A stretch of DNA of 53,108 bases, from the NCBI GenBank assembly GCA_022843745.1, contig JALHNB010000016.1, positions 1-53,108 of the forward strand. The letters run 5' to 3'. Each line of letters begins with the position of its first letter. The stretch's first letter is position 1. The translations under genes were made by a program, and so were the position numbers. Origin of the DNA: Anaerolineae bacterium (GTDB lineage Bacteria; Chloroflexota; Anaerolineae; Aggregatilineales; Phototrophicaceae). Shown here piece after piece: positions 1,298 through 51,592 of the stretch. The notes beneath the pieces were generated by a model. It was not told where the DNA came from. It saw only the letters and a program-made list of their open reading frames with translations, and searched no databases.

Positions 1298-2697
1298 GCG
1301 ATCAGCCTCTGGTTTCGATCATCATCCCTACCTTCAACCGCGCGAAGAGCATCTCAGAGACTCTGGAAAGTGTATTCAAGCTAACCTATCAAAACCTCGA
1401 AATCATTGTGGTTGACGATGGCTCAACGGACGATACCGCCGCTGTGATCGCTTCCTATGGGGATAAAGTGCGTTATCACCACCACGAAAATCAGGGCGTT
1501 GAACGAGCGCGCCGGCTGGGTGTTCAGGTTTCAAAGGGCGCTTATATCAATTTTCTGGATGACGACGACCTGATGATACCGGACAAAATTGAACGGCAAG
1601 TGAAGTTGTTTCAGGAACATCCGCAACTGGGCATTGTTCACTGTGGCTATCATTACATCGATAAAGATGGCGGCTTATTGGAAACTACCGGACAATTGCC
1701 CGAAGGCGATGTGCGCAAACAGCTTGCCTGGGGATGTTTTCCGTGGTCAGGTGGACCACTTGTACGCCGTGAATGCCTTGAGGTAATCGGCGAAAATGAA
1801 CACCGCGATTGGCACGGTGACTGGGGTATGTGGCTGCGAGTAGCGCTAGCTGGTTTTTACTTTGGCTGTATACAGGAGCCTTTAGGTTCATACCGCATTG
1901 TCCCCGGCAGCATGACGGATGAAAAAGTGGCAAACGCCGAACGATTGGTATTCCACATTTTGGATGAAGTTTTCACCAAATATGAACTTCCACCCGAAAC
2001 ACTTATCGAGAAAAATCAGATTTATGCAGGTTGGCATTTCTGGATAGCCTGCCGCTACTATGTTGGAGGCTTTTGGGAAGAAGCGAAACGCAGCCTGACC
2101 AGCACACTCACCTATCGCCCGGATTTGCTTGAAAAACCGGATGATCTGTTTCAACTTTTTTATTGGGATGCGCTCAGCCCGCGTGGTCGCGTAGGGAATC
2201 CAGTAAAATTTATCAGCGACATCTTTGATCATCTCCCTGAAATTGCTGCGCCCATCAGAATTTACCGGAAGCGATTCCTCGCCCGGATCTATATGGGGTT
2301 AGCGTTACACGATTACGGTGCAGATCGTACCGATGCAGGGCGTCACAAGCTGACTGAAGCATTGTTGCTTGATCCCAATTCACTTCAACAGCCAGATGAT
2401 TTTCTGGTTTCCCTGTACGATTATGCCAGTAAAATGAGGCTGACTTCCCCCGCTGATTATGTAAACACGGTGTTCGAGAATCTTCCGCCGCACGCGGATG
2501 CGCTCTTAAAGACAAAAAGGCGGATACTAGGCAACATAAACATTGCTCACGCTTTCCAGGATTATGAGAGGGGTGATCGTCAGCATGTGCCGGGACGTGT
2601 CATCACTGCACTCTATAATCAGCCTCACCTGCTGAAAAATCGCGGCGTGTTATCCATCCTGGTCAAGTCACTTCCCTCATACTTAAAGAAACATTAG
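1294..2697 (+). CDS. Family 2 glycosyltransferase, tandem paralogue 2
   Basis: The start is the ATG in the ATGA overlap with the preceding stop, giving MSDQPLVSIIIPTFNRAKS, the usual GT2 beginning. Motifs in order are IIVVDDGSTDDT (UDP-sugar binding), ENQGVERARRLG, and FLDDDD as the metal-binding DxD equivalent. The segment CGYHYIDKDG...LPEGDVR...GCFPWSGGPLVRRECL closely matches the flanking paralogues. The C-terminal half carries the same helical extension (ACRYYVGGFWEEAKRSLTS) and ends with RGVLSILVKSLP. The gene probably arose by tandem duplication and acts on the same surface glycan as its neighbours. The helical half may hold the enzymes together or bind the acceptor; this is inference. 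Confidence 0.92.
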   Translation: MSDQPLVSIIIPTFNRAKSISETLESVFKLTYQNLEIIVVDDGSTDDTAAVIASYGDKVRYHHHENQGVERARRLGVQVSKGAYINFLDDDDLMIPDKIERQVKLFQEHPQLGIVHCGYHYIDKDGGLLETTGQLPEGDVRKQLAWGCFPWSGGPLVRRECLEVIGENEHRDWHGDWGMWLRVALAGFYFGCIQEPLGSYRIVPGSMTDEKVANAERLVFHILDEVFTKYELPPETLIEKNQIYAGWHFWIACRYYVGGFWEEAKRSLTSTLTYRPDLLEKPDDLFQLFYWDALSPRGRVGNPVKFISDIFDHLPEIAAPIRIYRKRFLARIYMGLALHDYGADRTDAGRHKLTEALLLDPNSLQQPDDFLVSLYDYASKMRLTSPADYVNTVFENLPPHADALLKTKRRILGNINIAHAFQDYERGDRQHVPGRVITALYNQPHLLKNRGVLSILVKSLPSYLKKH

Positions 2698-2700
2698 CTT

Positions 2701-4083
2701 ATGAAACCGCTAGTCTCAGTCATTATTCCAACTTATAATCGGTGGTCATATTTACAAATGACCATAGACAGCGTGCTGGCGCAGACCTATCCGCACATTG
2801 AAATCATCGTTGTGAATGATGGTTCGACGGATCAGACCGCCGAGATGCTACTTGAATATTCCAATCGCGTTCGCGTCATATCTCAGACCAATCAAGGCGG
2901 TACTGCTGCTCGAAATACTGGGTTGAGCAAGGCTAGGGGGACATATATCACCTTTCTTGATCATGACGATTTGATGCTCCCAAATAAGCTGGAACGCCAG
3001 ATCGCACTGCTTGAACAGTATCCTGAAATCGCCGTGGCACACTGTCGTTGGCAGTATATTGGTGTGCAAGGAAATATCCTGGATCGAATTGGCCCGCTTC
3101 CAGAGGGTAATCTTTTCCAAACGCTTGTTTTAGGTTGTTTCCTATGGTCGGGCGCTCCTGTTATCCGCCGCGATTGTTTCAATCATGTGGGTAACTTTGA
3201 TACCAGCATCTGGAGTTCCGATTGGGATATGTGGCTACGATTAGCCAAAGCGGGTTACAAATTCGGTTGTGTGCAGGAAATCCTCGGCTCATACCGTATT
3301 ATGCCCGATAGCACCATGTCGGATGTGACCCGCACTGAAGCTATGGATATCCGGCTGTTGGATAAAACCTTTGCCAGTTCACAAGAGATTCCTCAGTCTA
3401 TACTGGCAGTAAAGGATGAAGCCTATGCGAACTGGCGCTTCTGGCTCAGCCGCCGCTATTACGCAACTAATTCACCCCAGGATGGTGAGCGGAATCTAGG
3501 AGAAGCGTTTCGACTTTATCCAGAAATCCTGGCCAATCGCAATGATTTTCTCGAAGTTTTATGTAATGAAGCGCTTGATGTCCGTGTGAACGATCCATTC
3601 GCGTTTGTAGAAATGGTTTTTAGCCATTTGCCGCCCGCAGCAAAACCCATTCAGGATGAGTGTAAATTTGTATTGAGTCAGGTGCATATTGGCCTGGCGT
3701 TGCGGGCTTATGCGAGTGATAACTTTGAGATCGGACGGAACCACATATATAAAGCCTTCGCTTTGTACGCTGATCAAACTGAGCATTTTGCTAAACGCTG
3801 TGTAGCCTATGCGATGCGCCTGTCACTCAAGCCAACAGATTTTGTGAAAACCGTGTTGGATCACTTACCGCCAGAAACTGCCTCCTTGAAAACGCTTCGC
3901 TCTCGATTAATGAGCGATGTAACAATTGCCAGCGCGTTTGAAGATTATTTCGCAGGGCAGCATAGACGCGCCGGACGACAAATAGTAAGCGCCATCGTTT
4001 GGCAGCCATCCTGGTTAAAAAATAAAGGTGTTCTGTCCGTGCTGGCAAAGTCGCTGCCAGCAATTTTATTAAATAGAGATTGA
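2701..4083 (+). CDS. Family 2 glycosyltransferase, tandem paralogue 3
   Basis: The gene begins three bases after the previous stop with MKPLVSVIIPTYNRWSYLQ. It has IIVVNDGSTDQT, QGGTAARNTG and FLDHDDLM. It resembles the first gene of the window most closely: both have GGTAARNTG, FLDHDD and WSGAP.IRR. The catalytic part is followed by the helical extension (WLSRRYYATNSPQDGERNLGEAF) and the terminal signature KGVLSVLAKSLP. The length of 460 residues is well above a minimal GT2 (about 250-330), and the extension explains the difference. The gene is in an operon with the other four transferases. The product is likely cytoplasmic or peripheral, since no membrane segment is visible. Confidence 0.92.
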   Translation: MKPLVSVIIPTYNRWSYLQMTIDSVLAQTYPHIEIIVVNDGSTDQTAEMLLEYSNRVRVISQTNQGGTAARNTGLSKARGTYITFLDHDDLMLPNKLERQIALLEQYPEIAVAHCRWQYIGVQGNILDRIGPLPEGNLFQTLVLGCFLWSGAPVIRRDCFNHVGNFDTSIWSSDWDMWLRLAKAGYKFGCVQEILGSYRIMPDSTMSDVTRTEAMDIRLLDKTFASSQEIPQSILAVKDEAYANWRFWLSRRYYATNSPQDGERNLGEAFRLYPEILANRNDFLEVLCNEALDVRVNDPFAFVEMVFSHLPPAAKPIQDECKFVLSQVHIGLALRAYASDNFEIGRNHIYKAFALYADQTEHFAKRCVAYAMRLSLKPTDFVKTVLDHLPPETASLKTLRSRLMSDVTIASAFEDYFAGQHRRAGRQIVSAIVWQPSWLKNKGVLSVLAKSLPAILLNRD

Positions 4084-4087
4084 AATT

Positions 4088-5224
4088 ATGTCACTTATAT
4101 CCGTTATCATCCCCAGTTATAACCAGGAAAGTTACATCATCGACGCTGTTGAAAGTGTCCTGGCGCAAACCTATACTGATTGCGAGATTATCGTCGTTGA
4201 CGACGGTTCTATCGATAATACTCATGCCCGCCTCACCTCGTATTTTGATCGTATTCGATACCTTCATCAGGCTAATAAAGGTCTTTCTGGTGCTCGTAAT
4301 GCTGGGCTTGCTGCCTCTCATGGTGATTACATTCTGTTTTTAGACGGCGACGATTTGCTGCGTTCCGACGCACTCGAAAAGCTATCGTGTATTCTTGACC
4401 AGTCACCAGATGATGGTCTGGTTTATAGCGCCTGGCAGCAGGTAAGCGCCGATGACAAATCGGTTTTGAGCGAAATTCATCCGCGTCAGGTTGGGCATCT
4501 ATTGAAGTCACTCCTGCTACGAGAGTTTTTCTTCTTTGGTAGTTCAACTCTCATCCGCCGCAGTGTTTTGGAACAGGTTGGGCCGTTTGATGAAACCCTG
4601 ACTTGGGGAGACGATGCCGATATGTGGCTTCGGATCGGTCTGGCTGGTTGGTCATTTGGCTATCTGGATGAACCTATCCTACAGTATCGTGTCCACCATG
4701 CCAGTATGACCGCCACTGTCAGCACACATCAGATTGAAAGCTGGCAAGCAGGATTGAGAAAATTTTTTGCAATGCCTGATCTTACACCAGAGCTGCGTTC
4801 GCTGGAAAAGCAAGCTTGTGCCGTACTCTATTTCGAGACGGCAGGTCGTTATTTTCGCGCTGGAGAATATGAGTTGGGTCGGGAGTTGTTGTGTCAGGCA
4901 CTGCAAGTTAACGGTATACCTGATACCGATTGGTTCCTTAATTGGCTCGCTGGAACAGCTCTCGACCCGCGCACTGGAAACCCAATAGAGTTCATTGAAC
5001 GGATCTTTGATCAGCTACCTCCTGAAGCGATTGGTCTGCGCACTTTAAGAAGGCGAGCCCAAGGTCGTTATCATACTGCGGCGAGCTTTACTGCCCATCT
5101 TAGCCATAATTCTGCCGCAGTCCGGCAGCATATCCTTCCCGCCCTGCTCAACGATCCCACTAACATCGCCAATCGCGGATTTATGAAAGTTGCGTTTAAT
5201 TCCCTTTTGCAGATTGGCGACTGA
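4088..5224 (+). CDS. Family 2 glycosyltransferase, shorter paralogue 4
   Basis: The start ATG gives MSLISVIIPSYNQESYIID, four bases after the previous stop. The motifs are IIVVDDGSIDNT, LSGARNAG and FLDGDDLL. The core is complete, and the WGDDADMWLRIGLAG...EPILQYRVHH stretch matches the other paralogues. The C-terminal extension is present but trimmed: one helical unit (AGRYFRAGEYELGRELLCQAL) and the TALDPRTGNPIEFIERIFDQLPPEA block, then a diverged end (NRGFMKVAFNSLL) in place of the full signature. This makes it the most diverged of the four paralogues. It presumably adds a different sugar or linkage to the same glycan. Confidence 0.92.
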   Translation: MSLISVIIPSYNQESYIIDAVESVLAQTYTDCEIIVVDDGSIDNTHARLTSYFDRIRYLHQANKGLSGARNAGLAASHGDYILFLDGDDLLRSDALEKLSCILDQSPDDGLVYSAWQQVSADDKSVLSEIHPRQVGHLLKSLLLREFFFFGSSTLIRRSVLEQVGPFDETLTWGDDADMWLRIGLAGWSFGYLDEPILQYRVHHASMTATVSTHQIESWQAGLRKFFAMPDLTPELRSLEKQACAVLYFETAGRYFRAGEYELGRELLCQALQVNGIPDTDWFLNWLAGTALDPRTGNPIEFIERIFDQLPPEAIGLRTLRRRAQGRYHTAASFTAHLSHNSAAVRQHILPALLNDPTNIANRGFMKVAFNSLLQIGD

Positions 5225-5227
5225 ATC

Positions 5228-6211
5228 ATGTCCTTTTATCTTCCAACTGTCAGCGTGATTATTCCAGTCTATAATGGCGAACGAACATTAGCCATCTGCC
5301 TGGAAAGCCTGTTAAACCAGAATTACCCCCGTGACTCGTATGAAATCATCGTGGTCGAAAATGGCTCAACCGACAGAACAGCAGCGATTGCTCAGAGCTA
5401 TCAGGTACGTCTCTTGCATAGCGCCGAGCGCGGCCCATCCGCAGCCCGCAACCTGGGCATCGCCAGCAGCCACGCGGAGATCATCGCTTTCACGGATGCA
5501 GACTGTATCGCCCACGTTGACTGGCTGCGCGAGTTGGTTCAACCGTATTCGGATGCCAGAGTAGGTGGTGTAGCAGGCGAAATTCTGGCCTATAAACATG
5601 ATGAACTCAACATTATTGAAAACTTTCTGGATGAATTTCCGCCGCTCCAAAATTTCATGAAGGGCGAAGTTGAATTTCGGCCGTATCTATTCACAGCCAA
5701 TGCCTCTTATCGTCGCGATATACTTCAGAAACTGAATGGCTTTAATACGTCTCTGTTTACCGCAGAAGATGTAGATTTATCATGGCGTGTACAAATTATT
5801 ACTGAGTTTAATGTATGCTATGCACCCCAGGCTATCATCTACCATCACCATCGATCAACATTAAAAGGATTATGCCGCCAGTATAGGCAGTATGGCTTTG
5901 GGGAAATTACTCTAGATATGATCTATAAATCGCAGCCTGGTTATCCACGTAACCTTTCATTCCAGCTGCGGCGTATTCTCAAGCAGATTTGTACTTTACC
6001 CAACTACCTCATTTCAACAGGAATCCGTCATTATCGACTTCGGCGTGGATATATCACCCCTTATCAAGCGGCAATCCCAATTTTAACGTTACTGGTTGAA
6101 AGCAGTAATATTTGGGGCAAATTAGAGGCTTTAGTCGCGACTCGATTGATGACAAATACCGATACTTTCACTCAGAAAAAAATCGCCGACTATATCCAGC
6201 GATACTATTGA
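5228..6211 (+). CDS. Family 2 glycosyltransferase, distinct subfamily
   Basis: The start ATG lies three bases after the previous stop and gives MSFYLPTVSVIIPVYNGERTL. It has VVENGSTDRT, RGPSAARNLG and FTDADC (DxD). It also has the late GT2 motif FTAEDVDLSWRV, where the ED/xxR part supplies catalytic base and acceptor contacts. It lacks the helical extension of the four upstream paralogues. Instead its C-terminal part, with RQYRQYGFGEI and a basic RHYRLRRGYITPYQ stretch, is typical of stand-alone GT2 enzymes of exopolysaccharide loci. It is the last gene of the tandem array. The roughly 140 bases between it and the next small gene show no clear terminator. Confidence 0.9.
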   Translation: MSFYLPTVSVIIPVYNGERTLAICLESLLNQNYPRDSYEIIVVENGSTDRTAAIAQSYQVRLLHSAERGPSAARNLGIASSHAEIIAFTDADCIAHVDWLRELVQPYSDARVGGVAGEILAYKHDELNIIENFLDEFPPLQNFMKGEVEFRPYLFTANASYRRDILQKLNGFNTSLFTAEDVDLSWRVQIITEFNVCYAPQAIIYHHHRSTLKGLCRQYRQYGFGEITLDMIYKSQPGYPRNLSFQLRRILKQICTLPNYLISTGIRHYRLRRGYITPYQAAIPILTLLVESSNIWGKLEALVATRLMTNTDTFTQKKIADYIQRYY

Positions 6212-6354
6212 TCCCATCGCAAATACCAACTACCAGTGACTATAGCAAGAAAACACTTTGATCAACCGGCAAGACATCACATTTACACCTTTGACCGGAT
6301 AAAGGCCGATTATTGTCGGTTAGCACAAGATGAACGCCAAGTGATATAGCGACT

Positions 6355-6518: not shown

Positions 6519-7405
6519 GAGGCCATTTGAAAATTAAGGAACGAGACGCTTGAGCAAAGTATGAATAGAAGCGAGGTAAATCATGCCCTCACTGCTACGG
6601 GTGCATTCCTCATAATCTTTGCTCAGGCGACGATAATTACCCAGCCAAGCGAAAGTGCGTTCCACGACCCAGCGTCTTGGTAAAACGTGGAAACCAGATT
6701 GATCGTGGGCGGGCAACACAATCTCCAGAGTGATCTGGAAGCATTGCAGACACCAGCGCAGGAGAGCGCCTCTGTAAGCGCCATCGGCCCAGATTTGCAA
6801 CAGGCGCAAACGCAGCATCGGCAGGAGCGCCGCCAGCAAGAGTTTAGCACCATCCCGATCTTGAATATCGCCACGATGCACCACCACGTGCAATAAATGA
6901 CCCTGAGTATCCACCAGAATATGGCGTTTGCGCCCCTTGACCTTCTTACCCGCATCATAGCCGTGTTCTCCGCCTACCTCTGTCGTTTTCACACTTTGAC
7001 TGTCCATGATGGCCGCACTCGGATGCGGATTGCGTCCCGCTTGCCGCCGCACCGCATAGCACAAAGCGCGGTTGATCCGCTCCCGCGTTCCGTCCAAACA
7101 CCATTTGCGATAATCGTAGTAGACCCTGTGGGCATTCGGAAAATGAGACGGTAGATTCGCCCATTGACATCCCGTTTTCACAATATACAGCATCCCATTC
7201 ACCGCCGCCTGTAGATCGATACTGATCGGTCTGCCTGCTCCTGAGCGTTCTAACGCTAACAATTCCTTGATCCGTTCCCACTGTTTCTGGCTCAGATCAC
7301 TGGTATATCGCCGCTTTTTGTGACACACTTTTCTTTATTCCTTTTCGGTCTGAATGGTTTGGTTGGTCCCTCCATTCTACCGAATTGGAATTTTCAAATG
7401 GCCTC
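6519..7405 (-). mobile_element. IS5-family insertion sequence, complete, 887 bp
   Basis: Perfect 17-bp terminal inverted repeats, beginning GAGGCCATTTGAAAATT, lie at 6519-6535 and 7389-7405. Both sides carry the 3-bp direct repeat TTA (6516-6518 and 7406-7408), a short target duplication as expected of IS5-family members. The element holds one intact transposase gene whose stop codon lies inside the left repeat. Intact repeats, open frame and target duplication suggest recent insertion. Confidence 0.92.
6534..7328 (-). CDS. IS5-family transposase (DDE)
   Basis: The 264-residue product has an N-terminal helix-turn-helix-like region (SDLSQKQWERIKELL), then GCQWANLP. The DDE catalytic residues appear in MDSQSVKTTE (first Asp), WADGAY (second Asp) and RRWVVERTFAWLGNYRRL (Glu). 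The central GKKVKGRKRHILVDTQG is diagnostic of the IS5/IS427-like group. Length and motifs are complete, so the enzyme is probably active. It catalyses cut-and-paste movement of the surrounding 887-bp element. No frameshift is needed, unlike some IS5 relatives with a split gene. Confidence 0.93.
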   Translation of the reverse strand: MCHKKRRYTSDLSQKQWERIKELLALERSGAGRPISIDLQAAVNGMLYIVKTGCQWANLPSHFPNAHRVYYDYRKWCLDGTRERINRALCYAVRRQAGRNPHPSAAIMDSQSVKTTEVGGEHGYDAGKKVKGRKRHILVDTQGHLLHVVVHRGDIQDRDGAKLLLAALLPMLRLRLLQIWADGAYRGALLRWCLQCFQITLEIVLPAHDQSGFHVLPRRWVVERTFAWLGNYRRLSKDYEECTRSSEGMIYLASIHTLLKRLVP

Positions 7406-7409
7406 TTAT

Positions 7410-8848
7410 ACTTTGCACCATCAAGCAGCGTAGCACAAGGTGGAGAGAAGGGCATCAAATAAGGGTTTGGGGATTTTAAGCATGTCGGGTTCGTCCTTGG
7501 ATATTCGGAAAGTCGGAAAGGCAAACCACAGATGTTGACGTACCAGGGCAAGGGCGTCGGAGAAAGTGGGCAGGGGTTTGGTGTACCAGGCGGCTTGACG
7601 AGGAGAGGACGTAGGGTTGAGAGAGTAGAGCGCATCGGCAACCAACGTGACCCAAGAGAAGAGACCCAACAAGAGCGGGGTGGTGCGGGCAATGGCTTTG
7701 TCCGACCACTGGCGTTGGGTTTCCAATCCCAGATGGCGACGGGCTTCTTCAAAGGTGACTTCCAACTGCCAGCGCTGAACGAAGCAGGCCAGGATATAGG
7801 CAGGCGTTTGCAGAGGGTCGCTACACAGCACAGCCACAGGGGCGTATTCCCGCTGCGGATCACGGATCAAGACCCAGCGGATGGGGACAGATGGTTTGGC
7901 GGTGTGGTACCACACGGCACAACCCGAAGCAATGTCCATCACGCGCTGCTGCCCATCGTACCAAGTCAACGAAATGCTCGTCCAAACGGTGTCCGGATCG
8001 GTCAGGATCTGGGCCAAAGTTGGCAGACGCTTGCCTTTCTTGCGTGGTCGTCCGCGTCTGCTGTAAGGTGGTGCAGGTTCGTACAAGGCCGCATCCATTC
8101 TCAGGCGGCAGACAACGGCGATTTTCATCCCCTGCATCTGGCTCAGAAAGTCCAGCGCCGCATAGGCACTGTCGCCCACCAGCACCAGCTCGCGCTGCGG
8201 CAACCAGCGGCGCAACAAGGCCAGCATTTGGCGACTGCGCTGCAAATTGCTTTTAGGACTGCGTCCGCGTTGTTGGTAATAACGCTCGGAAGGCGACAGC
8301 ACCGTCATCACGGGCAAAGCCCAGATGCGCTGTGCCCAGGAAATGCGCGTCAGCAGCATCAGACTAATCCAGCGCAAGCCGCTGGTTTTGACAAAGTGAC
8401 TATCACTGGAGCGTACCGGGTCACGATAAATGCCGCGGGCTGCGATCTTGCGTCCCCAACGCCGTTCTATCGTCGTGTCAATCCCAAACACCAACGCTTG
8501 CTCTCGCTCACCAAACGCGCTCAGCAGCAGCTTCAGCAGCACGCCTGCCAAGTCCAAAGGCGACCACACCGCCCGATTCAGCACGTGATGATACTGCGCG
8601 AATTGCTTGCTCTCGCTCAAGCCCATCACCCGCAGCGTTTCACTCACCACCCGTTTTCCCGGTGTCAAGATCGCACCCACCAACAGCCTTTTCGCTTTTT
8701 CCCAAGTCGTTACCCCGTAAAAACATGGCGCAAACGGGTTTACTCTGTCCATAATTACCCAAGGCAGGTTCAGCATCGTTTCATCCTTTACCAGAGGTTT
8801 GAAACAGCTTATCCTGCCTCCCTTTTTTCAGCTACCTATGTGCAAAGT
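7410..8848 (-). mobile_element. IS4/IS701-like insertion sequence, about 1.44 kb
   Basis: The ends are placed at short inverted repeats: ACTTTGCAC at 7410-7418 and its complement at 8840-8848. Beyond nine bases the ends match only loosely. The transposase gene fills the element. No convincing target duplication is visible. The left end sits only four bases from the IS5-type element, which may have altered the original junction. The boundaries are therefore less certain than those of its neighbour. Confidence 0.7.
7421..8776 (-). CDS. DDE transposase, IS4 superfamily (IS701-like)
   Basis: The 451-residue product has the RNase H-like DDE fold. The first Asp is in FGIDTTIERRWG, the second in VLVGDSAYAAL, and the Glu is in QRWQLEVTFEEARRHLG, the Y/W-x-x-E helix typical of IS4-superfamily enzymes. 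A basic linker (YSRRGRPRKKGKR) follows the second Asp. RGIYRDPVRSSDSHFVKTSGLRW is characteristic of a group common in Planctomycetes and Chloroflexota; that is from memory, not a search. The frame is intact from ATG to TGA, so it appears functional. The assignment to IS701 rather than another IS4-like family is tentative. Confidence 0.85.
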   Translation of the reverse strand: MLNLPWVIMDRVNPFAPCFYGVTTWEKAKRLLVGAILTPGKRVVSETLRVMGLSESKQFAQYHHVLNRAVWSPLDLAGVLLKLLLSAFGEREQALVFGIDTTIERRWGRKIAARGIYRDPVRSSDSHFVKTSGLRWISLMLLTRISWAQRIWALPVMTVLSPSERYYQQRGRSPKSNLQRSRQMLALLRRWLPQRELVLVGDSAYAALDFLSQMQGMKIAVVCRLRMDAALYEPAPPYSRRGRPRKKGKRLPTLAQILTDPDTVWTSISLTWYDGQQRVMDIASGCAVWYHTAKPSVPIRWVLIRDPQREYAPVAVLCSDPLQTPAYILACFVQRWQLEVTFEEARRHLGLETQRQWSDKAIARTTPLLLGLFSWVTLVADALYSLNPTSSPRQAAWYTKPLPTFSDALALVRQHLWFAFPTFRISKDEPDMLKIPKPLFDALLSTLCYAA

Positions 8849-8987: not shown

Positions 8988-9110
8988 AGACTTGTGTACC
9001 GCTGATTGGGGTTGACTGTTAAAGTTGTATACCCTTGATTTGGGTAACTGTTGAAATTGTGTACCCCTTAATTTGGGTAACTGTTGAAGATGTATATCGG
9101 GTATGCTCTT
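8988..9110 (+). repeat. Tandem imperfect 33-bp repeats upstream of the phosphosignalling operon
   Basis: About three and a half copies of a 32-33 bp unit lie head to tail: 8988-9020, 9021-9052, 9053-9085 and a partial copy at 9086-9110. Each full unit contains TTGTRTACC, then an AT-rich centre, then GGGT and ACTGTT. Within a unit, TACCC and GGGTA form a small inverted repeat. The array ends about 20 bases before the first gene of the operon. The rest of the 8849-9130 gap shows no other gene. Confidence 0.75.
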
Positions 9111-9130: not shown

Positions 9131-9637
9131 ATGCAGTGTCCTAATTGCAAACATTGGAATGAAGATGGTTCTCGTTTCTGCGAAGAATGTGGTTTCGAGC
9201 TGAAGGAAGAAAGTCGCGCATCGGTTTCCGTTTCTGTGCGCCCGGCTGATGCTTTACCAATTCCACAACCTGATTTACCCCAACCACCCCCACAGACTTT
9301 AATTCCGATTGATGCGCCACCCGCCGCGCCTTATACTGGCCCTCGGCTTGTGCTGAATTCCACTGGCTCGATCTTCAAGCTGGGCGACGCAGCCGTGATC
9401 GGACGCGAAGACGCTTCTCTGCAAATTGATTTCGATGGCTACCCAGAAGGTAAATACATAAGCCACCGACATGCTCAGGTCATCAAAATGAACGGCAAAT
9501 ACTATCTTGAAGACCTCGGCAGTTCGAATCACACTTATGTAAACGACATTAAGCTGGCAGAAGGTCAGGCCGAGCCGCTGCAAGAAGGCGATAAAGTACG
9601 CTTCGGTAAAATTGAGTTAACGTTTCATGAGTCATAA
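9131..9637 (+). CDS. Zinc ribbon-FHA domain protein
   Basis: The start follows a good ribosome binding site (GGAGGT, 9118-9123). Residues 1-22 form a CxxC...CxxC zinc ribbon (C3, C6, C17, C20). A proline-rich linker (about 40-68) leads to an FHA domain (about 70-166). The phosphothreonine-binding residues are visible: GRE at 91-93, S111 and H114 in SHRHAQV, and SSNHTYVN at 131-138. FHA domains read phosphothreonine, so this is the likely reader or substrate of the kinase encoded next. The following gene starts four bases after the stop. There is no signal peptide; the protein is cytoplasmic. Domain calls are firm, the partner is inference. Confidence 0.92.
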   Translation: MQCPNCKHWNEDGSRFCEECGFELKEESRASVSVSVRPADALPIPQPDLPQPPPQTLIPIDAPPAAPYTGPRLVLNSTGSIFKLGDAAVIGREDASLQIDFDGYPEGKYISHRHAQVIKMNGKYYLEDLGSSNHTYVNDIKLAEGQAEPLQEGDKVRFGKIELTFHES

Positions 9638-9640
9638 ACC

Positions 9641-11764
9641 ATGAGTACAGAAACGACAGCAACAATTGAGTGTCCGCATTGCCACAAGATGACCTCCAAT
9701 GCAAGCGGATTCTGCGATGAGTGTGGGCTGGAACTGGCGACCCAGGCATTAAAGCCAGTCACAGCAGCGCAGCTTATGCAAACGGGCACAATGGAAATGG
9801 CTGACCGTTCCAAATGTCCCAACTGTGGTCATGCCTTACGCCCTAACGCGCGTCACTGCCCCAACTGTGGCAAAAAGCTGCCACGTGCCGATGCACCAGT
9901 TGCACCTAAAGCGGACGGCCCACCGAGTGCACTTCAGGTTGGTCTGGTCATCGCAGACCGCTATGGCCTGGAGAGTGTGCTTGGCGAAGGCGGCATGGGA
10001 CGCGCCTGGAAAGCTTTTGATCGCAATCTCAAAAAATATGTTGTCATTAAAACGATGGTGGCGCAAGACGATGCGCTGCGCCGGGAATTGCAAAAAGAAG
10101 CTGAAGTTCTCATCAACATCCGGCATCCCAATATCATCTCCGTATTCGACTTTTTTTCTGTCGAAAATGAATTGTGCTATGTCATGGAGTTCGTCTCCGG
10201 GCCAAGCTGGGCAGATGAAATCGAAGAACCAGGGACGCGCAAACTCGTGCTGCCCATGTCAGCGGAACAGGCGCTTTCACGTGTAAAAGGTCTGCTACCC
10301 GCTTTTCGCTATTTGCATGACCTTAAGCCACCGATCATTTATTGCGATTTTAAGCCGTCTAACGTGAAGGGCATGACACTCGCCAACGGCGATCAGATCG
10401 AAGTTCTGCTCGATTTCGGCACGGCTTATAAATATGACCCCAAAGTTCCGCCCAAGCCCGCGCGTGGCACACCGGGCTATCACTCCCAGCAAGCCCAACA
10501 TCCCGACTGGCGCGACGACTATTTCACGATTGGTCGCACGATTGCCGAGCTTATCGGTATGGCCGAAGTCCACACCGAGCAATATCGTTTTACACTCACG
10601 CCACCTGACCAATTTCCCTGGATTCAATATGACGAATCCCTGCGGTATCTGGTTGAATGGCTGACCGCGCCAGAACGCGATGATCGCCCGCAAAATGTGG
10701 ATGCGATTATGGCCGAAATCGACGGCGTGATGGGCTATGTTAAAGGCCAGAAGCCCGATGCACGCGCTATGAAACAGCATCGTCAGAAAGCTAACTTCGC
10801 CGGAGTCACGGTAGAAACGATGCGTGCTGCAACCCGCACAGGCATGGTCACAGGCACAGCCAAGATTGACCTCCCCCAAGCGCCGCCAACCAATCCTGCT
10901 TCGACAGTTTTACTGAGCGCACAGGAAGCGTATCAACAGCGCGACATGACGCGGGCGCTGCTGCTGGCAAATCAGGCCATCAATAATAACGGTGGCGCCT
11001 CCGCCTATATTCTGCGTTCGCTGATTCACAACCAAACCGGCAATATCGGCGATGCAGAAACCGACCTCAAATACGCACAGAGCATGTCCGATCCGCAGGT
11101 TCGCTGGGAAATGCTGCTTGCCGAGGGACAGTTACTCGAAAATTCAGGAAAATTCGAAGAGGCTGCCGAACGCTACCGCCGGATGATGGCTTTGAAACCG
11201 GGCGATCATCGCGGACGTTTACTGCTGGCCGATCTTTACCGCCGAAGCAATAACCATAATCAGGCGATCAACGAATATCGCGCGATTATCCAGGCGAAAC
11301 CCGGTGTTGGCCCAGCTTATCTGGGTGCTTCAAAAGCTTATCTCGCCAACGATCAGCTTGAAGATGCGATCAAGGTATTAGAGGACGTGAGCAGCCGCAA
11401 CACCAGCTACAACGAAGTCATGATGGAATTGATTGCACTTTACAACCAGAAAGCGATGAGTGGCAATGCAACGATCCTGGAACAGACTGCCCGTGCGGTT
11501 GATGTACTACAGGAAAATGGCATCGAGTCGCGCGTATTTTATCGACTGATCGCCGAATTTTATTACACAGCATTCCAGATCGCGAAAGCTACGGGTCAAC
11601 TGCCACAGGTCACATGGCCGGATGAGAAGATTACGAGTATCGCGGATTTATCCAGAGCCAATGAACGCGCATGGCGTGAATACCTGACACGCGATGAAGA
11701 AGCAGATCGCGACGACATTATCAATAACCGCATCATGAACGCACGTACATGGGCGTTGATTTAG
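9641..11764 (+). CDS. Zinc ribbon-Ser/Thr protein kinase-TPR protein
   Basis: The 707-residue protein begins with two zinc ribbons (C11/C14/C25/C28 and C59/C62/C73/C76). A eukaryotic-type kinase domain spans about 103-375: glycine loop GEGGMG (115-120), ATP lysine in VVIKTM (K137), catalytic loop YCDFKPSN (D236, N241), DFG (D258) and GTPGY (276-280). The residues before the catalytic Asp are Y-C instead of the usual H-R, so this is a non-RD kinase. From about 420 to 630 there are TPR-type helical repeats (for example NSGKFEEAAERYRRMMALKPGD). No membrane segment is present, unlike PknB-type receptors. Neighbours supply an FHA reader, a vWA protein and a PP2C phosphatase. Confidence 0.93.
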   Translation: MSTETTATIECPHCHKMTSNASGFCDECGLELATQALKPVTAAQLMQTGTMEMADRSKCPNCGHALRPNARHCPNCGKKLPRADAPVAPKADGPPSALQVGLVIADRYGLESVLGEGGMGRAWKAFDRNLKKYVVIKTMVAQDDALRRELQKEAEVLINIRHPNIISVFDFFSVENELCYVMEFVSGPSWADEIEEPGTRKLVLPMSAEQALSRVKGLLPAFRYLHDLKPPIIYCDFKPSNVKGMTLANGDQIEVLLDFGTAYKYDPKVPPKPARGTPGYHSQQAQHPDWRDDYFTIGRTIAELIGMAEVHTEQYRFTLTPPDQFPWIQYDESLRYLVEWLTAPERDDRPQNVDAIMAEIDGVMGYVKGQKPDARAMKQHRQKANFAGVTVETMRAATRTGMVTGTAKIDLPQAPPTNPASTVLLSAQEAYQQRDMTRALLLANQAINNNGGASAYILRSLIHNQTGNIGDAETDLKYAQSMSDPQVRWEMLLAEGQLLENSGKFEEAAERYRRMMALKPGDHRGRLLLADLYRRSNNHNQAINEYRAIIQAKPGVGPAYLGASKAYLANDQLEDAIKVLEDVSSRNTSYNEVMMELIALYNQKAMSGNATILEQTARAVDVLQENGIESRVFYRLIAEFYYTAFQIAKATGQLPQVTWPDEKITSIADLSRANERAWREYLTRDEEADRDDIINNRIMNARTWALI

Positions 11765-11777
11765 GCAAGAGGGGAAA

Positions 11778-13019
11778 ATGACAAACGCATTTAGCTTTAA
11801 GGTGTACTACAACCCACATATCAACCCGACCACCAACTCTTTCTGGGGTGTGGTGTCGATTGCTGCGAACGAAACGTCACAGCAGGCACAGGAAACAGTC
11901 ATCTCGCTCATCTGCGATGTATCCGGCTCAATGCAGGGTGCGAAATTTAACAACATGATCGAAACGACAGAGGACCTGCTACGCACCGCGCCAGATGGTC
12001 TGCTGTTGAATGTTGTCGTGTTCTATAACACCGGCGAGGAGGTTGTTCCCATCACCTTGCTTCAGCCAGGGATGAATCGCGAATCGCTCGTGCAAACTTT
12101 CCGCCGCAATATGAAGCGCGTTCAGGTTTTTGGCGGTACATCTATGTCCACAGGCATCGAGCAGGCACTCCGTGCGCAGGAAGCTGTACCCGGAAATGTC
12201 GCTCGTTACGGGATTTTCCTGAGCGATGGGCAAAATACGGAGCCTGAATCCCAACTTGCTGCCGCTGTCAAAAAGGCTGCTGATGCCCGTATGCACCTGT
12301 GCGCCTACGGTTATGGGAAAGACTGGGATGCCCAACAACTCACGCTGATGGCGCAAATTACGCAGGGCTGGATGCCAAAAGCAGTGCCGGAAGCCGATGC
12401 CTTACGCGCAGAATTTTCAGCACTGGTTGCCCGCATGGCAAAAACCGTTGCCTCCGATGTGGCATTGCAGCTTTGGACACCTGTGGGTGCGCGTATTCTG
12501 TCACTCTCTCAGGCTTATCCCGATTGGGTGCGTGGAGAGGCCGCACCGCAGGGCGACGATCACACCTGGGTTGTACCTGTTCCGCCGATGTCGTCCAAAG
12601 ATCATCGTGATTTTGTCGTCCATATTGAACTCGCGAACGTCGGCGCACGGGTATTGGCGTGCAGGCCGTCGGTTGTCTATGTCGCTGGTGGGCAGCGTGT
12701 CGAAGAAAAAGGCGACCAATCCACATGGATGATTCTGGAACAAACTAATGACCCTGCACTTTATAATCAGGTTCATCCGGTAGTCGCGGGCTATCTCGGA
12801 CAAGGCCAGCTTGCCAGTTCAACCCGCGCCATGACCGAAGCGCTGGCCGCCGGAGATCAGACCGCCGCAGAACGTCATCGCACCGAAGCGCTGGAAATCG
12901 CCCAGGCCACCGGCAACCGCCCCATGACCGAAATTTTGCAGGCTGCCGGAAGTGGCAGCGAAGTTGCGCGTAAGACGGCTGCGTTGGGAACATCAACCGT
13001 CAGCCTGACTGAAGAATAG
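11778..13019 (+). CDS. vWA domain protein
   Basis: The start follows AGAGGGGAAA. The vWA domain (about 40-225) has a full MIDAS metal site: DVSGS (D47, S49, S51), the Thr in GGTSMSTGIE, and Asp in FLSDGQN. After it comes a beta-rich region with PVGARILSLSQ and a helical C-terminal part (about 335-400) rich in Ala and Glu. vWA domains bind proteins through a coordinated metal and often act as scaffolds. The pairing with a Ser/Thr kinase and PP2C resembles the TerY-P triad known from comparative genomics. No Ter genes are present here, so that parallel is structural only. Confidence 0.9.
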   Translation: MTNAFSFKVYYNPHINPTTNSFWGVVSIAANETSQQAQETVISLICDVSGSMQGAKFNNMIETTEDLLRTAPDGLLLNVVVFYNTGEEVVPITLLQPGMNRESLVQTFRRNMKRVQVFGGTSMSTGIEQALRAQEAVPGNVARYGIFLSDGQNTEPESQLAAAVKKAADARMHLCAYGYGKDWDAQQLTLMAQITQGWMPKAVPEADALRAEFSALVARMAKTVASDVALQLWTPVGARILSLSQAYPDWVRGEAAPQGDDHTWVVPVPPMSSKDHRDFVVHIELANVGARVLACRPSVVYVAGGQRVEEKGDQSTWMILEQTNDPALYNQVHPVVAGYLGQGQLASSTRAMTEALAAGDQTAAERHRTEALEIAQATGNRPMTEILQAAGSGSEVARKTAALGTSTVSLTEE

Positions 13020-13027
13020 CTCAATTC

Positions 13028-13579
13028 ATGAGCGCTGAATCTTCGGTTAATCGCAAGCCTTGCCCCAAGTGTGGACACGCCAACCGTCCGACGGCGAAAG
13101 TCTGCTCAAAATGTGGGTATGGCTTTGTTTCCGTGCGTGAGGACGGCGCACTGCGCAAATTCTGTACGCAATGCGGCACGGAAAATCGAATCCGGGCGCG
13201 GGTATGTGTTCAATGTGGGAAACTTTTTCGCGGTGTTCGCCCTGTCATCAAGGTGCGCGGGCAAAAATGGTGTCCGCAGTGTGGCAAACCGCGCCGCCAG
13301 CAGGCAAAAGTATGTTCCAACTGTGGCTATCGCTTCAAAATTATTCCACACGAAGAACCCCTTGTCCCGCAAGCTCCGCATCCCCTCACGCTGCCTCGGC
13401 AGTTTGACCTGCCACCTGTGCTGCCCCCGGAGCGCACACCGAAACGGCCTGTACCGCTTGAGGGTGAACCCGCACCCTATCTCACCAACGATGAAATTAA
13501 TCAGCTTCGTGGAGGCGGCGTGTATAATCAAAATCTTGCGGCGCGTGTTCTCTACACATTCACCAGGAAAAAGCGTTGA
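13028..13579 (+). CDS. Triple zinc-ribbon protein
   Basis: The 183-residue protein consists of three successive CxxC...CxxC zinc ribbons (CPKCGHANRPTAKVCSKCG, then FCTQCG...CVQCG, then WCPQCG...CSNCG), about 30-35 residues apart. A proline-rich linker and a short conserved-looking tail (YLTNDEINQLRGGGVYNQ) follow. It has no catalytic motif. The ribbons match those fused to the FHA protein and the kinase in the same operon, so it may be an adaptor linking these proteins. The gene starts eight bases after the vWA gene and overlaps the phosphatase gene by one base. Confidence 0.88.
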   Translation: MSAESSVNRKPCPKCGHANRPTAKVCSKCGYGFVSVREDGALRKFCTQCGTENRIRARVCVQCGKLFRGVRPVIKVRGQKWCPQCGKPRRQQAKVCSNCGYRFKIIPHEEPLVPQAPHPLTLPRQFDLPPVLPPERTPKRPVPLEGEPAPYLTNDEINQLRGGGVYNQNLAARVLYTFTRKKR

Positions 13580-14511
13580 TGACCATCTACCACTACATCC
13601 AGGCTTCGATTGAGCATCTTGAACGCTGCGAAGACGCTTTTATGATTTTTCCCGGCAACGGCAAAGCACCCGTTTATTCGGCGATTGACGGCATGGGGGG
13701 ACACCAGCGGCAGACGGCAAGCGGCGAAATGATTACCGGGCGTGAAGCTTCGCAAATGGTACGCAGTGTTTTGATCGAAGATTTGCAGCATCTCCCGGCA
13801 GACGTAGATGGCTCCCCTGGCGGTTTAGCCGAACAGCGCGTGATTGCGGCTATCAATCGCGCACACCAGCGAGTCTATAATGAGCTTAATCTGGGCGGTG
13901 CGCTGCCGCTAAACCAGTGTGTGGGCGCAGTCGCAACCGTTGTCGTCGTCTGCGAAAACGGCCAACGGTTACTCACCGTACAGGTCGGCGATACACGCGG
14001 CTATTTATTTTCAATCGACGAGATTATTCAGCTTTGCCCGGATGAGGATAATGTCGAACATCTCGTCCGGCAAGGCGCTTTGAGCAGCGAAGACGGCTCA
14101 CGTGTTACCGAAATTCTCAACAGCTACGATGGCGTGAACCTCCCCAAAGCTGAAGGCACGATCACCATTGGCGGGCAGCCCTATGAACTCTATCTGGCAT
14201 GGCGCTGGTTTATGGTGGGCAACAGCGCCCTCAATATCCCCGGCGCGAATATCGTCATCAGTGCGCTTGGCATCCACGCCGCTAATCCTCTGCCACTATC
14301 GTCCCGAATCGAAGTTGGCGCAGGCGACAAAATATTCCTGTGTTCGGACGGCTTGTATAAAAATCTGACCGAGGCGGAGATTCTGGCTGGATTGCAGCAA
14401 CCCGGCGATGGCGCGACTCCACTGGGCGAGGCCGCCTATGCGCGTTCACAGGATCGCAGCAACCGCCGCCGGACACCGGACGACATTACCGCGATCATCG
14501 TGGAACTTTGA
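13579..14511 (+). CDS. PP2C-family protein phosphatase
   Basis: The ATG at 13579 is chosen; it overlaps the previous stop in TGATG and keeps the operon coupled. An in-frame TTG one codon earlier is less likely. PP2C motifs in order are AIDGMGGH (D37, metal), VQVGDTRGYLF, CSDGL and PDDITAIIVEL, so all metal-coordinating aspartates are present. A segment around YELYLAWRWFMVGN appears inserted relative to compact PP2C enzymes. The 310-residue length is somewhat above the bacterial minimum of about 240. The enzyme removes phosphate from Ser/Thr and probably reverses the kinase of this operon. It is the last gene of the cluster and convergent with the next one. Confidence 0.92.
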   Translation: MTIYHYIQASIEHLERCEDAFMIFPGNGKAPVYSAIDGMGGHQRQTASGEMITGREASQMVRSVLIEDLQHLPADVDGSPGGLAEQRVIAAINRAHQRVYNELNLGGALPLNQCVGAVATVVVVCENGQRLLTVQVGDTRGYLFSIDEIIQLCPDEDNVEHLVRQGALSSEDGSRVTEILNSYDGVNLPKAEGTITIGGQPYELYLAWRWFMVGNSALNIPGANIVISALGIHAANPLPLSSRIEVGAGDKIFLCSDGLYKNLTEAEILAGLQQPGDGATPLGEAAYARSQDRSNRRRTPDDITAIIVEL

Positions 14512-14528: not shown

Positions 14529-15959
14529 CTAAAGTTCGCGATAGCGGTGATAAATGCCAACCGCGACCAGTGCCATCACCAGCAGATAACCTAACACGCC
14601 AAAAAGCACCTGATTGCGCGGCAAAGAATCGCGCTGCGCATTCCAGATGTCGTCAAATACAGTCCGGTTAATCTGATTGACCTGCTCCATCGCCTGAGTA
14701 AAACGACCAAATGCTTCTTCACTGCCGCCCGCATCAGAACGGGTATTCAATTCGACTGCGCCTGTTAAGTCACCTGTTTTAATCAACTCACGCAGTTGGG
14801 TGTTAATGGTACGGTAATCGATAAACGCGAGACGCGCTTGTTCCAACGCTTCCGCCTCCCCCGCGAACGTGATATTCGCCATCAATGGCACAACACCGTC
14901 CAAAATATCGCTGGCAGAGGTGATTTGCTGTGCTGTCGCCACCACAGAGGAATTGGGTGTATCTGCACCCACGAGAAATGATTGATCCATACATCCCGGC
15001 GCTCCGCACAGGCGCAGTTCAACCGACTGCACATTATCATCAAAAATCTGATGCCAGTATTTTGGGCGCAAATAGTCGATAATCGTGCTGCTTTCGGCGC
15101 GATTCGCCTGATTTGCCACCACCAGCACGCGCGAACTGCCGCTGATGCTGTAATACGAATCACGAATCATCGTATTAAGCTGCCCTGGCATCTGCGTGAG
15201 GTTAATCACCATTAAGCCGATTAACACCCAACCCAAAATCGCGGCGACGTCAATGCCAGGAGTCAGATAGCGGCGAACTTTTTGGCGCAGCCAGAATGAG
15301 AGATAGGTCAACCCAAGCGCCAGCCCGACAGCCGGGATGACCAGCAAAATGACTTGTGCGATAATTCCGGCTTCGGCTTGTTCACCTTCGTCCACCATCG
15401 CCTGGAAATTGAGCGCCTCTAATTCCTGTAGCGCTGGGATGATTCGATTGCGAAGATGATTATCGGCAGAGAGATATTCGCGCCGTGCTGCCTCGATATT
15501 ACTGCGCTGCGAGAGTAGATTGCTCACATGTCGCCAGAAACGGCTGTAGGTATAGGTATCGGCAACAGTAAAAGCGGTTTGATCTTCTGGCGTATGTAAG
15601 TTTTCGCGAAGAATGAACATTTGGTCACGAAAACGATGAAAATTGCGGAAAATGTTATTTTGCGCCTGCTCAAACAAAGGTGTATCGGATGTCAGCGCGG
15701 CGTAATCGGCGGTAGCCTGGCTGGTATTGGCGAGATATTGAAGTGCTTGTTCGGCGGCATCGACATTGGTGCTGTTGACGATGGCGATATTCTCAAACAT
15801 CGCATAAGTGCTGTTATAAGCATTCACCGCGAGCGAAATAACGATCAGCGCGACCAATATCGCCACTCCCCCGGCAGCAACGAGGCGATAGCGCGTTTGC
15901 CAGCGAAACCCAGTTTGGCTTACTTCGCGATGAGGCACAGCAGCTTGAACAGCAGACAT
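14529..15959 (-). CDS. Four-helix membrane protein with large extracytoplasmic domains, unknown function
   Basis: The ATG at 15959 (MSAVQAAVPHREVSQ) is preferred over an upstream in-frame TTG; AAGGA lies ten bases before it. The protein is about 476 residues. Membrane helices lie near residues 26-48, 200-222 and 232-255 and at the C-terminus (NQVLFGVLGYLLVMALVAVGIY). Between the first and second is a long helical region (AEQALQYLANTSQATADYAAL), like the four-helix sensor bundle of chemoreceptors. A second such region follows helix three. There is no HAMP, kinase or methyl-accepting domain. The gene is convergent with the phosphatase gene, 17 bases away, and could be a sensor for that cluster; this is speculative. 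Confidence 0.75.
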   Translation of the reverse strand: MSAVQAAVPHREVSQTGFRWQTRYRLVAAGGVAILVALIVISLAVNAYNSTYAMFENIAIVNSTNVDAAEQALQYLANTSQATADYAALTSDTPLFEQAQNNIFRNFHRFRDQMFILRENLHTPEDQTAFTVADTYTYSRFWRHVSNLLSQRSNIEAARREYLSADNHLRNRIIPALQELEALNFQAMVDEGEQAEAGIIAQVILLVIPAVGLALGLTYLSFWLRQKVRRYLTPGIDVAAILGWVLIGLMVINLTQMPGQLNTMIRDSYYSISGSSRVLVVANQANRAESSTIIDYLRPKYWHQIFDDNVQSVELRLCGAPGCMDQSFLVGADTPNSSVVATAQQITSASDILDGVVPLMANITFAGEAEALEQARLAFIDYRTINTQLRELIKTGDLTGAVELNTRSDAGGSEEAFGRFTQAMEQVNQINRTVFDDIWNAQRDSLPRNQVLFGVLGYLLVMALVAVGIYHRYREL

Positions 15960-16004
15960 TATTAGCGCATCCTTGATTATCAAACTTCTCTCAAAATGTC
16001 AGTT

Positions 16005-16033
16005 GTAGGGGCTGGTCTGAGACCCGCCCCTAC
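16005..16033. repeat. Palindromic GTAGGGGC...GCCCCTAC element
   Basis: GTAGGGGC (16005-16012) pairs with GCCCCTAC (16026-16033), and an inner GGTC/GACC stem closes on a TGA loop. It lies between two divergently transcribed genes, so it is not a normal terminator position. Related palindromes occur at 38033-38062, 47098-47120 and around 32695-32912. Confidence 0.75.
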
Positions 16034-51229: not shown

Positions 51230-51592
51230 TTGAGTCACGAATTATCTGTCACGGTGATGAGCGGTGTCGATGATGGCTCGCTGCTCAAGTGCAGCGCTGA
51301 AAATGGCGATGGACACCTCCATGAAGATGGTACGTGGGTGTTCAACATCGGGCGGCACGACAGCAACGATATCTGCCTTAATAACGACACATTCATTTCA
51401 CGGATGCACGCACGGATTTTTTGGAACGAGAATCACTGGTGGGTCGAGGACTGTGAAAGCACCAACGGCACATTCATCGAAACCCCGGACGAGGATAAAC
51501 CAGTCAAGGAAGCCATTTCGGTTGCACCAGGGCAACTATTTCGGATCGGACGCACATGGTTGCGTATAGAACCGGACGGTTCAGAAGAGTGA
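51230..51592 (+). CDS. Stand-alone FHA domain protein
   Basis: A TTG at 51230 preceded by GAGGAAA gives MSHELSVTVMSG; an ATG at 51257 would trim the first strand of the domain. The 120-residue protein is one FHA domain, with the phosphothreonine-binding residues in FNIGRHDSNDICL, FISRMHARIF and DCESTNGTFI. It is a small adaptor that binds phosphothreonine. The next gene, a Clp-N/kinase-like fusion, starts six bases later, so they form an operon and probably a functional pair. Confidence 0.88.
   Translation: MSHELSVTVMSGVDDGSLLKCSAENGDGHLHEDGTWVFNIGRHDSNDICLNNDTFISRMHARIFWNENHWWVEDCESTNGTFIETPDEDKPVKEAISVAPGQLFRIGRTWLRIEPDGSEE

Follow-up and report, generated by a model that had tools for sequence, protein, structure and literature searches.

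The DNA analysed here, 53,108 nucleotides of contig JALHNB010000016.1 (GenBank assembly GCA_022843745.1, Anaerolineae bacterium, Chloroflexota; hereafter the window), carries at positions 9131-14511 a five-gene phospho-signalling operon, on which the gene of a GlnX-family membrane receptor converges. Operon and receptor, with functions predicted from sequence, are probably a rearranged Anaerolineae variant of a larger PknG-GlnX signalling module. The accessible part of the published work proposes a route from GlnH through GlnX and the tetratricopeptide repeat (TPR) domain of PknG to GarA (PMC6069109), and the window holds each class of protein on this route except an adjacent binding protein. 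The features are:

9131-9637, + strand: ribbon-FHA (forkhead-associated) protein, 168 residues (PF00498, 59.2 bits), a candidate phosphothreonine-binding partner or substrate of the kinase
9641-11764, + strand: PknG-like Ser/Thr kinase, 707 residues (PF00069, 84.7 bits; PF16918, 43.4 bits), with two N-terminal ribbons, a kinase domain and a C-terminal TPR domain
10856-11521, + strand: PknG-type TPR domain of the kinase, residues 406-627 (PF16918), the expected dock for GlnX
11778-13019, + strand: vWA (von Willebrand factor A) protein, 413 residues (PF00092, 46.5 bits), with a metal ion-dependent adhesion site (MIDAS) and a C-terminal part
13028-13579, + strand: triple zinc-ribbon protein, 183 residues (DZR, 66.1 bits), with a Pro-rich, basic tail
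13579-14511 (from its ATG), + strand: PP2C (protein phosphatase 2C) phosphatase without a ribbon, 310 residues (PF13672, PP2C_2, 29.3 bits, cut-off 24)
14529-15983, - strand: GlnX-family membrane receptor, 484 residues, four transmembrane (TM) segments with two long helical stretches in between; the gene converges on the operon

The five operon genes share one strand with intergenic gaps of 3, 13, 8 and -1 bases (at the last junction stop and start overlap in TGATG), and the GlnX gene is 17 bases from the PP2C stop. Paired CxxC motifs occur in the FHA protein (3/17), the kinase (11/25 and 59/73) and the ribbon protein (12/26, 46/60 and 82/96); a motif count finds no such ribbon pairs in the vWA and PP2C proteins. 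The first-pass annotation of this DNA had described five tightly packed genes (gaps of 3-13 bases or overlap), zinc ribbons in three of the five proteins and a self-contained phospho-signalling operon, and these descriptions stand, the last on the intact motifs and the conserved neighbourhood given below. It had also stated that no membrane receptor is present, which is wrong: the GlnX-family gene adjoins the operon and is also near it in three closely orthologous loci, L013, L015 and, separated by one gene, L014. Promoter and terminator scans gave results at or below the shuffled level.

The kinase resembles PknG in domain content, fold and tree position. Its PknG_TPR match (PF16918) exceeds the cut-off (43.4 bits against 27) and its kinase domain, with GEGGMG at 115, VVIK at 134, YCDFKPSN at 234 and LLDFG at 256, is of the non-RD type (YCD instead of HRD). 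A sequence search of the PDB has as its top matches 7mxb and 7mxj [C. glutamicum PknG, according to the accessible part of its description (PMC8546545)] and 2pzi (M. tuberculosis PknG). The AlphaFold2 (AF2) model has a mean predicted local distance difference test score (pLDDT) of 78.3, with the TPR region helical from residue 421 on, and a fold search with it places 2pzi_B, 2pzi_A and 7mxb first among 2000 candidates (687-717 columns, E from 4e-22 for 2pzi to 2e-21 for 7mxb, next match at 8e-13), at moderate TM-scores of 0.55-0.60 on the query. A profile of ten PknG-like kinases without any from Anaerolineae finds the window kinase at 3.8e-60 (positions 112-690 of 740 of the model). In a tree calculated by a quick method on the kinase domain alone, where L032 fills only 12% of columns, a branch with an SH-aLRT of 97 separates 36 rows picked by their TPR domain from 12 other kinases and E. 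coli YegI, and the five Anaerolineae-type rows form a strongly supported subclade.

Two zinc ribbons (residues 11-28 and 59-76) occupy the place of the rubredoxin, which in PknG has two CxxCG motifs, in the window kinase. In the second ribbon Cys 59, 73 and 76 are invariant and Cys 62 is nearly so across 20 aligned rows, and these cysteines align with those of relatives, some of which (a cyanobacterial and a Mycolicibacterium kinase) have a Pfam rubredoxin match (PF16919). The linker between the ribbons contains Thr34 and Thr41, invariant in five of five kinases (window, L012-L015), and Thr48, conserved in four of the five and replaced by Ser in L012; residues 34-54 have a pLDDT <50. PknG is described, in the accessible passages, as recruiting its FHA substrate via autophosphorylated N-terminal threonines (PMC8546545), and Thr34, Thr41 and Thr48 are candidate FHA-docking phosphosites. 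The N-terminal TETT of the kinase was considered as a GarA-like site and rejected, as it is not conserved among four close relatives.

The catalytic or binding motifs of the kinase, vWA, PP2C and FHA domains are present and, judged from the translations, intact. In the FHA protein, whose ribbon is formed by Cys 3, 6, 17 and 20, they are IGR (90), SHRH (111) and SSN (131), with G91, R92, S111, H114 and N133 invariant in 12 rows. The vWA protein has DVSGSM (47), GGTSMS (119) and SDGQN (149), its MIDAS residues D47, S49, S51, T121 and D150 are invariant in 10 vWA rows, and it matches PDB entry 4fx5 over residues 28-389 (E 8.8e-23). The PP2C motifs are DGMGGH (37), GDTRGY (137), CSDGL (255) and DDIT (301). 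A separate ribbon gene precedes the CxxC-less PP2C in the window, L013 and L015 (three ribbons) and in L014 (two ribbons); the PP2C proteins of other PknG-like clusters have 2-4 CxxC of their own. Because the PP2C here is ribbon-less and preceded by a ribbon gene, and elsewhere bears ribbons itself, the arrangement suggests that the separate gene is likely the detached ribbon part of a ribbon-PP2C, split off by gene fission. Ribbons that covary, as the first-pass annotation had foreseen, are found in this one respect: PP2C proteins that lack a ribbon are accompanied by a separate ribbon gene, and none was seen alongside those that bear ribbons.

Hydropathy places the TM segments of the membrane protein at residues 35-53, 207-225, 244-262 and 459-477, followed by a C-terminal tail of 7, and four TM segments with like spacing are found in the same way in eight GlnX-family proteins, Mycolicibacterium included. 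For GlnX, four TM segments and two domains in the periplasm have been described (PMC9769921, accessible part). The AF2 model (pLDDT 85.8) is almost all helix, and the order of the helices fits two helical bundles. A profile made only from the four Anaerolineae proteins finds the module GlnX of cyanobacteria (4e-20) and of a Burkholderiales metagenome-assembled genome (MAG; 5e-19) and, within 4e-20 to 1e-6, also those of Clostridium, Bryobacterales, a Nitrospiraceae MAG and a Bacillota MAG. In hhalign comparisons the Anaerolineae and cyanobacterial sets match at 98.4%, the cyanobacterial set matches a mycobacterial-type set (Mycolicibacterium, Amycolatopsis, Propionibacterium) at 98.9% and the direct comparison of Anaerolineae with mycobacterial-type GlnX reaches 91.6% (controls with two window permeases, 0.1% or less). 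Profile search and hhalign thus link the protein to true GlnX mainly via intermediates. The window GlnX is the sole match in the host genome at 1e-3.

The order FHA-kinase-vWA-ribbon-PP2C with convergent GlnX is the same in the window, L013, L014 and L015. The five genes are together in these three of the four close orthologous loci; in the fourth, L012, the contig ends within the vWA gene. The grouping is beyond chance, because it is retained in L013, L014 and L015. The Bacteroidetes label of L013 is likely wrong, because its kinase is 75% identical to that of the window, and its FHA gene probably starts at 747, not 624.

A wider set of 80 loci, the best of 97 candidates, came from a contig scan with the kinase alignment, followed by iterated profiles (L010 is the same contig as L016, and L099 lies within L014). 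FHA and PP2C profiles were built on domain parts with kinases excluded, earlier versions having drifted into kinases through the shared zinc ribbons, and open reading frames were called by a simple longest-frame rule, so that high-GC loci contain some overlong or overlapping frames and guessed starts. With L011 left out, the best kinase taken per locus and a TPR coverage cut-off of 100 positions, 36 loci (35 and the window) are PknG-like and 45 have other kinases. Within 8 kb of the 36 PknG-like kinases there are vWA genes at 27, FHA at 26, GlnX at 30, PP2C at 21 and GlnH at 16; the corresponding numbers for the 45 other kinases are 1, 5, 1, 7 and 0, and two of those loci, L036 and L038, lie on truncated contigs and their kinases are likely PknG-like, L038 holding the one GlnX of that group. 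vWA, FHA and GlnX are all present at 25 of the 36. The 11 loci without the full set comprise L012, L016, L022 and L026, on contigs of 8.9 kb or less; L023, L028, L033 and L035, with GlnX, GlnH and kinase and no vWA or FHA nearby; L027 and L032, with no partner within 8 kb; and L065, without FHA.

The usual order outside the Anaerolineae is a protein of ~400 residues, kinase, ribbon-PP2C, vWA, ribbon-FHA and GlnX, to which actinobacteria add GlnH: a seven-gene cluster present in Actinomycetota, Cyanobacteriota and others. GlnX is there usually co-directional with the kinase (exceptions L065 and L117), and in L018, L024, L025 and L037 the vWA-FHA-GlnX part is upstream of it. The ~400-residue protein (coiled coil by eye, without a Pfam match in L011, 3694-4881, and L017, 8010-9215) is conserved, stands 5' of the kinase in most full non-Anaerolineae clusters and looks like a further module member; it has no match in the window or L012-L015, a search that did not extend to the rest of the host genome. 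The window has the kinase, PP2C, vWA, ribbon-FHA and GlnX families in common with this cluster and differs in gene order, in its convergent GlnX, in its ribbon-less PP2C with a separate triple-ribbon gene and in the unmatched ~400-residue protein. By record label the loci belong to Actinomycetota, Cyanobacteriota, Acidobacteriota, Bacillota, Pseudomonadota, Nitrospirota and Chloroflexota; isolates among the named loci are Actinomycetota and Cyanobacteriota only, those of the other phyla being MAG contigs whose label may be wrong.

Sampling from the vWA side gave a similar picture. The vWA alignment (A5, E ≤ 1e-60) was applied to genomes of the phyla around L017, L039, L019, L025 and L024 and matched 5 of 194 genomes in Cyanobacteriota, 9 of 217 in Actinomycetota, 2 of 217 in Acidobacteriota, 1 of 299 in Bacillota and 1 of 378 in Pseudomonadota (centre genomes included), counts that may be lower bounds as the best few first-look candidates per genome were scored. 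All 16 new places from the first three of these searches (Cyanobacteriota, Actinomycetota and Acidobacteriota), with three from a search of the locus genomes, make 19 further vWA loci. A PknG-like kinase is beside the vWA gene in 18 of them, the exception (L111) being a 4.5-kb contig, and FHA is present at 17, GlnX at 16, PP2C at 15, the ~400-residue protein at 14 and GlnH at 9. At E ≤ 1e-15 the vWA protein was found in 15 of the genomes from 19 of 20 loci (L021 excluded) and was absent from two Mycolicibacterium genomes, an Amycolatopsis genome and the L022 genome. A split module in Propionibacteriaceae was rejected, because the genomes that hold L023, L026 and L027 have second and fuller clusters, L123-L125. 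A plasmid search with the kinase returned 244 records, in none of which a single place covered 80% of the query, and one with the vWA protein returned a single record, from Nonomuraea.

The system is rare in its own lineage and sporadic in the phylum. The kinase is found at E ≤ 1e-40 in 2 of 251 phylum genomes and the vWA protein at E ≤ 1e-15 in 5 of 396 class genomes, own genome included in both; own genome and G586 (the genome of L014) have close orthologues and the other three vWA matches are distant. The many Chloroflexota with all five genes together that the first-pass annotation had named as support are therefore not seen, and the separate variant that had been proposed is indeed a variant, but one that belongs to the PknG-GlnX system.

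Several observations weigh against this assignment. GlnX is transcribed convergently to the operon, the Nonomuraea protein in the GlnX position matches the window membrane protein with a BLASTP E of 0.002 only, and the Anaerolineae-only profile reaches actinobacterial GlnX at 2e-4 and weaker only, with Mycolicibacterium and Amycolatopsis GlnX unlisted at E ≤ 10; the direct hhalign match to mycobacterial-type GlnX covers 109 columns. The two bundles are taken from helix order, not from inspected three-dimensional packing, and a fold search with the GlnX model finds no solved fold at E ≤ 0.001. Pfam finds no PF16919 (PknG_rubred) in the window kinase, and the Anaerolineae kinases are on a long branch of a tree for which the program warned of long branches meeting. 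The ETTS motif of GarA and OdhI is not in the N-terminal part of the window FHA protein. A profile search of the locus found no GlnH-type (SBP_bac_3) gene near the operon; homologues of the SBP_bac_8 protein that accompanies GlnX in relatives, 61% and 51% identical, are on other contigs of the host genome and not beside GlnX. The 36 loci are not independent cases, because close relatives are included (several Nonomuraea, Nostocaceae and Glycomyces). In favour of the assignment, the distance matrices of kinase, vWA, GlnX and FHA proteins from the 24 loci holding all four correlate strongly (r 0.89-0.96; 0 of 2000 permutations as high), so that the set appears to travel together, with clade structure or species relatedness yielding part of the correlation.

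A PknG-like cytoplasmic module that answers to another signal (zinc, or redox via the ribbons), GlnX being a neighbour with a binding protein of its own, would accommodate the convergent orientation, the position of GlnX in L013-L015 directly 3' of a binding-protein gene on its own strand, the extra gene between PP2C and GlnX in L014 and the loci L114 and L119, which have kinase and vWA only of the families searched. We consider it unlikely in view of the GlnX genes near 30 of 36 PknG-like loci, usually co-directional outside the Anaerolineae, and of the functional link between GlnX and PknG in actinobacteria described in the accessible part of PMC6069109.

A reading of the locus as a TerY-P-like triad to which FHA and ribbon genes were added, and which would serve as a phospho-switch in stress or defence and not as a nutrient sensor, is quite improbable. 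The likeness consists of the vWA, PP2C and kinase classes only, together with PADLOC matches of the kinase domain to the PD-T4-6 and mad6 models; that domain is common to many Hanks kinases, the other four operon proteins have no PADLOC match at 0.01, and a defence system was rejected because the matches are confined to the kinase domain. The kinase groups with PknG in the tree, and its ribbons are N-terminal and its PknG TPR domain C-terminal, whereas the TerY-P kinase has a zinc ribbon fused at its C-terminus (PMC11090510, accessible part). No Ter or MoxR genes were noticed by eye among the open reading frame translations read, a family-model scan of the whole window not having been made. 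Profiles were also compared with E. coli YegI and YegL, which with PphC make up a TerY-P-type set: YegI has no match to the kinase profile at 1e-3, and YegL, the comparison protein used for the TerY-P vWA, has only 14 bits on the vWA profile and 219 residues against 413 here. Membership of TerY-P was rejected on the kinase architecture and these profile results, so that of the earlier comparison with TerY-P only the bare list of kinase, PP2C and vWA holds. A chance neighbourhood of common signalling genes, for which the signalling-rich host genome (47 FHA-domain matches and, counting the window kinase itself, 28 matches to that kinase at 1e-5) might speak, is hardly credible and was rejected on the kinase-side and vWA-side neighbourhood counts, the order conserved in L013, L014 and L015 and the presence here of the sole GlnX match of the genome.

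For the locus as a variant PknG-GlnX module, the following mechanism is proposed. A solute-binding protein in the periplasm would signal its ligand to the helical domains that GlnX has there, and through GlnX the signal would cross the membrane and reach the TPR domain of the kinase in the cytoplasm. This would relieve an inhibition by the N-terminal kinase ribbons, as stand-ins for the PknG rubredoxin, and the kinase would autophosphorylate the linker threonines. The ribbon-FHA protein could then dock on these phosphothreonines, be phosphorylated and carry the output; the separate ribbon protein would target the PP2C, which would reset the system, and the vWA protein may be the metal-dependent scaffold of the complex. 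Signal route and FHA docking are modelled on published PknG work; ligand, output and the roles of the vWA and ribbon proteins are our own suggestions.

In L013, L014 and L015 the gene of an SBP_bac_8 protein (PotD-like by eye) is directly 5' of GlnX on the same strand. The window has in this place a short intergenic stretch and a divergent cupin gene, and the 61% identical homologue elsewhere in the genome has no transporter gene directly beside it. A GC-rich inverted repeat, possibly a dispersed one, lies between GlnX and the cupin gene (16008-16030). In L103 a Peripla_BP_6 gene (5061-6299) is followed by a PknG-like kinase, 13 bases downstream with the stop codon counted, and then by vWA. 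Thus three binding-protein families, SBP_bac_3, SBP_bac_8 and Peripla_BP_6, accompany PknG-like kinases.

A broader proposal is made tentatively. PknG may not have originated in the three-gene pathway of mycobacteria but come from an older, receptor-swappable module (GlnX, kinase, PP2C, vWA, FHA, ribbons and often the ~400-residue protein), which by record label occurs in seven phyla or more. Exchange of its binding protein (SBP_bac_3, SBP_bac_8, Peripla_BP_6) would have let one core read different nutrients, and mycobacteria may have lost the phosphatase, vWA and FHA genes at the locus. The mycobacterial glnX-glnH-pknG operon looks like a reduced form of the larger module: reduction is the simpler reading because, in the quick tree, the Mycolicibacterium and Amycolatopsis kinases nest within an actinobacterial, mostly module-bearing clade, and gain of the extra genes elsewhere is a possible alternative. 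To the heavily studied PknG, these neighbourhoods add a co-encoded phosphatase, an FHA partner, a vWA protein and a further conserved protein. Full clusters occur in cyanobacterial and actinobacterial isolates, so each link is testable there, and the natural receptor swaps bear on the coupling of a single Ser/Thr kinase core to various extracellular ligands.

Published accounts, in their accessible parts, give GlnX, GlnH and GarA/OdhI as partners of PknG and treat the system as essentially actinobacterial (PMC6069109, PMC8546545); homologues are noted in Ktedonobacter and Calothrix, with orthologues mostly restricted to Actinobacteria (PMC8546545). The PknG-GlnX-GlnH system of Mycobacterium and Corynebacterium is a nutrient sensor in which a ligand governs the FHA effector and 2-oxoglutarate dehydrogenase. 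Like it, the window has an N-terminal Cys4 element (absent in Corynebacterium), a non-RD kinase domain, a PknG TPR domain, a GlnX with four TM segments and helical periplasmic parts, and an FHA protein as likely partner. Unlike that system, it has a double zinc ribbon in the kinase and no Pfam-recognizable rubredoxin, FHA, PP2C, vWA and ribbon genes in cis with a convergent GlnX, no GlnH-type gene found at the locus and, beside GlnX in its relatives, SBP_bac_8 at the place that GlnH has in actinobacteria; its FHA protein differs from GarA and OdhI in having a ribbon and no ETTS motif. The open literature searched, which did not include the original TerY-P paper, yielded no description of the seven-gene cluster. 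'PknG' and 'vWA' occur together as whole words in one open-library paper, on kinase domain architectures, whose available passages do not contain this cluster; kinase, PP2C and vWA genes are described beside GAP1-N2 systems in actinobacteria (PMC7159879, accessible part).

Directly upstream of the operon are two transposase genes on the - strand (6534-7328 and 7421-8776; DDE_Tnp_1/DUF4096 and DDE_5), at the position of which L012, L013 and L015 have a divergent gene (with a weak TPR signal in L015). A short repeat of the form GGGTAACTGTTGAAATTGTGTACCC occurs in three imperfect copies just 5' of the FHA gene (9008-9034, 9039-9067 and 9072-9101). Upstream of the transposases, five consecutive genes appear glycosyltransferase-like by eye (26-6211). 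A second FHA protein, without a ribbon, is encoded at 51230-51592, 3' of two response-regulator-like genes and 5' of a gene for a protein with a Clp-like N-terminus (both by eye).

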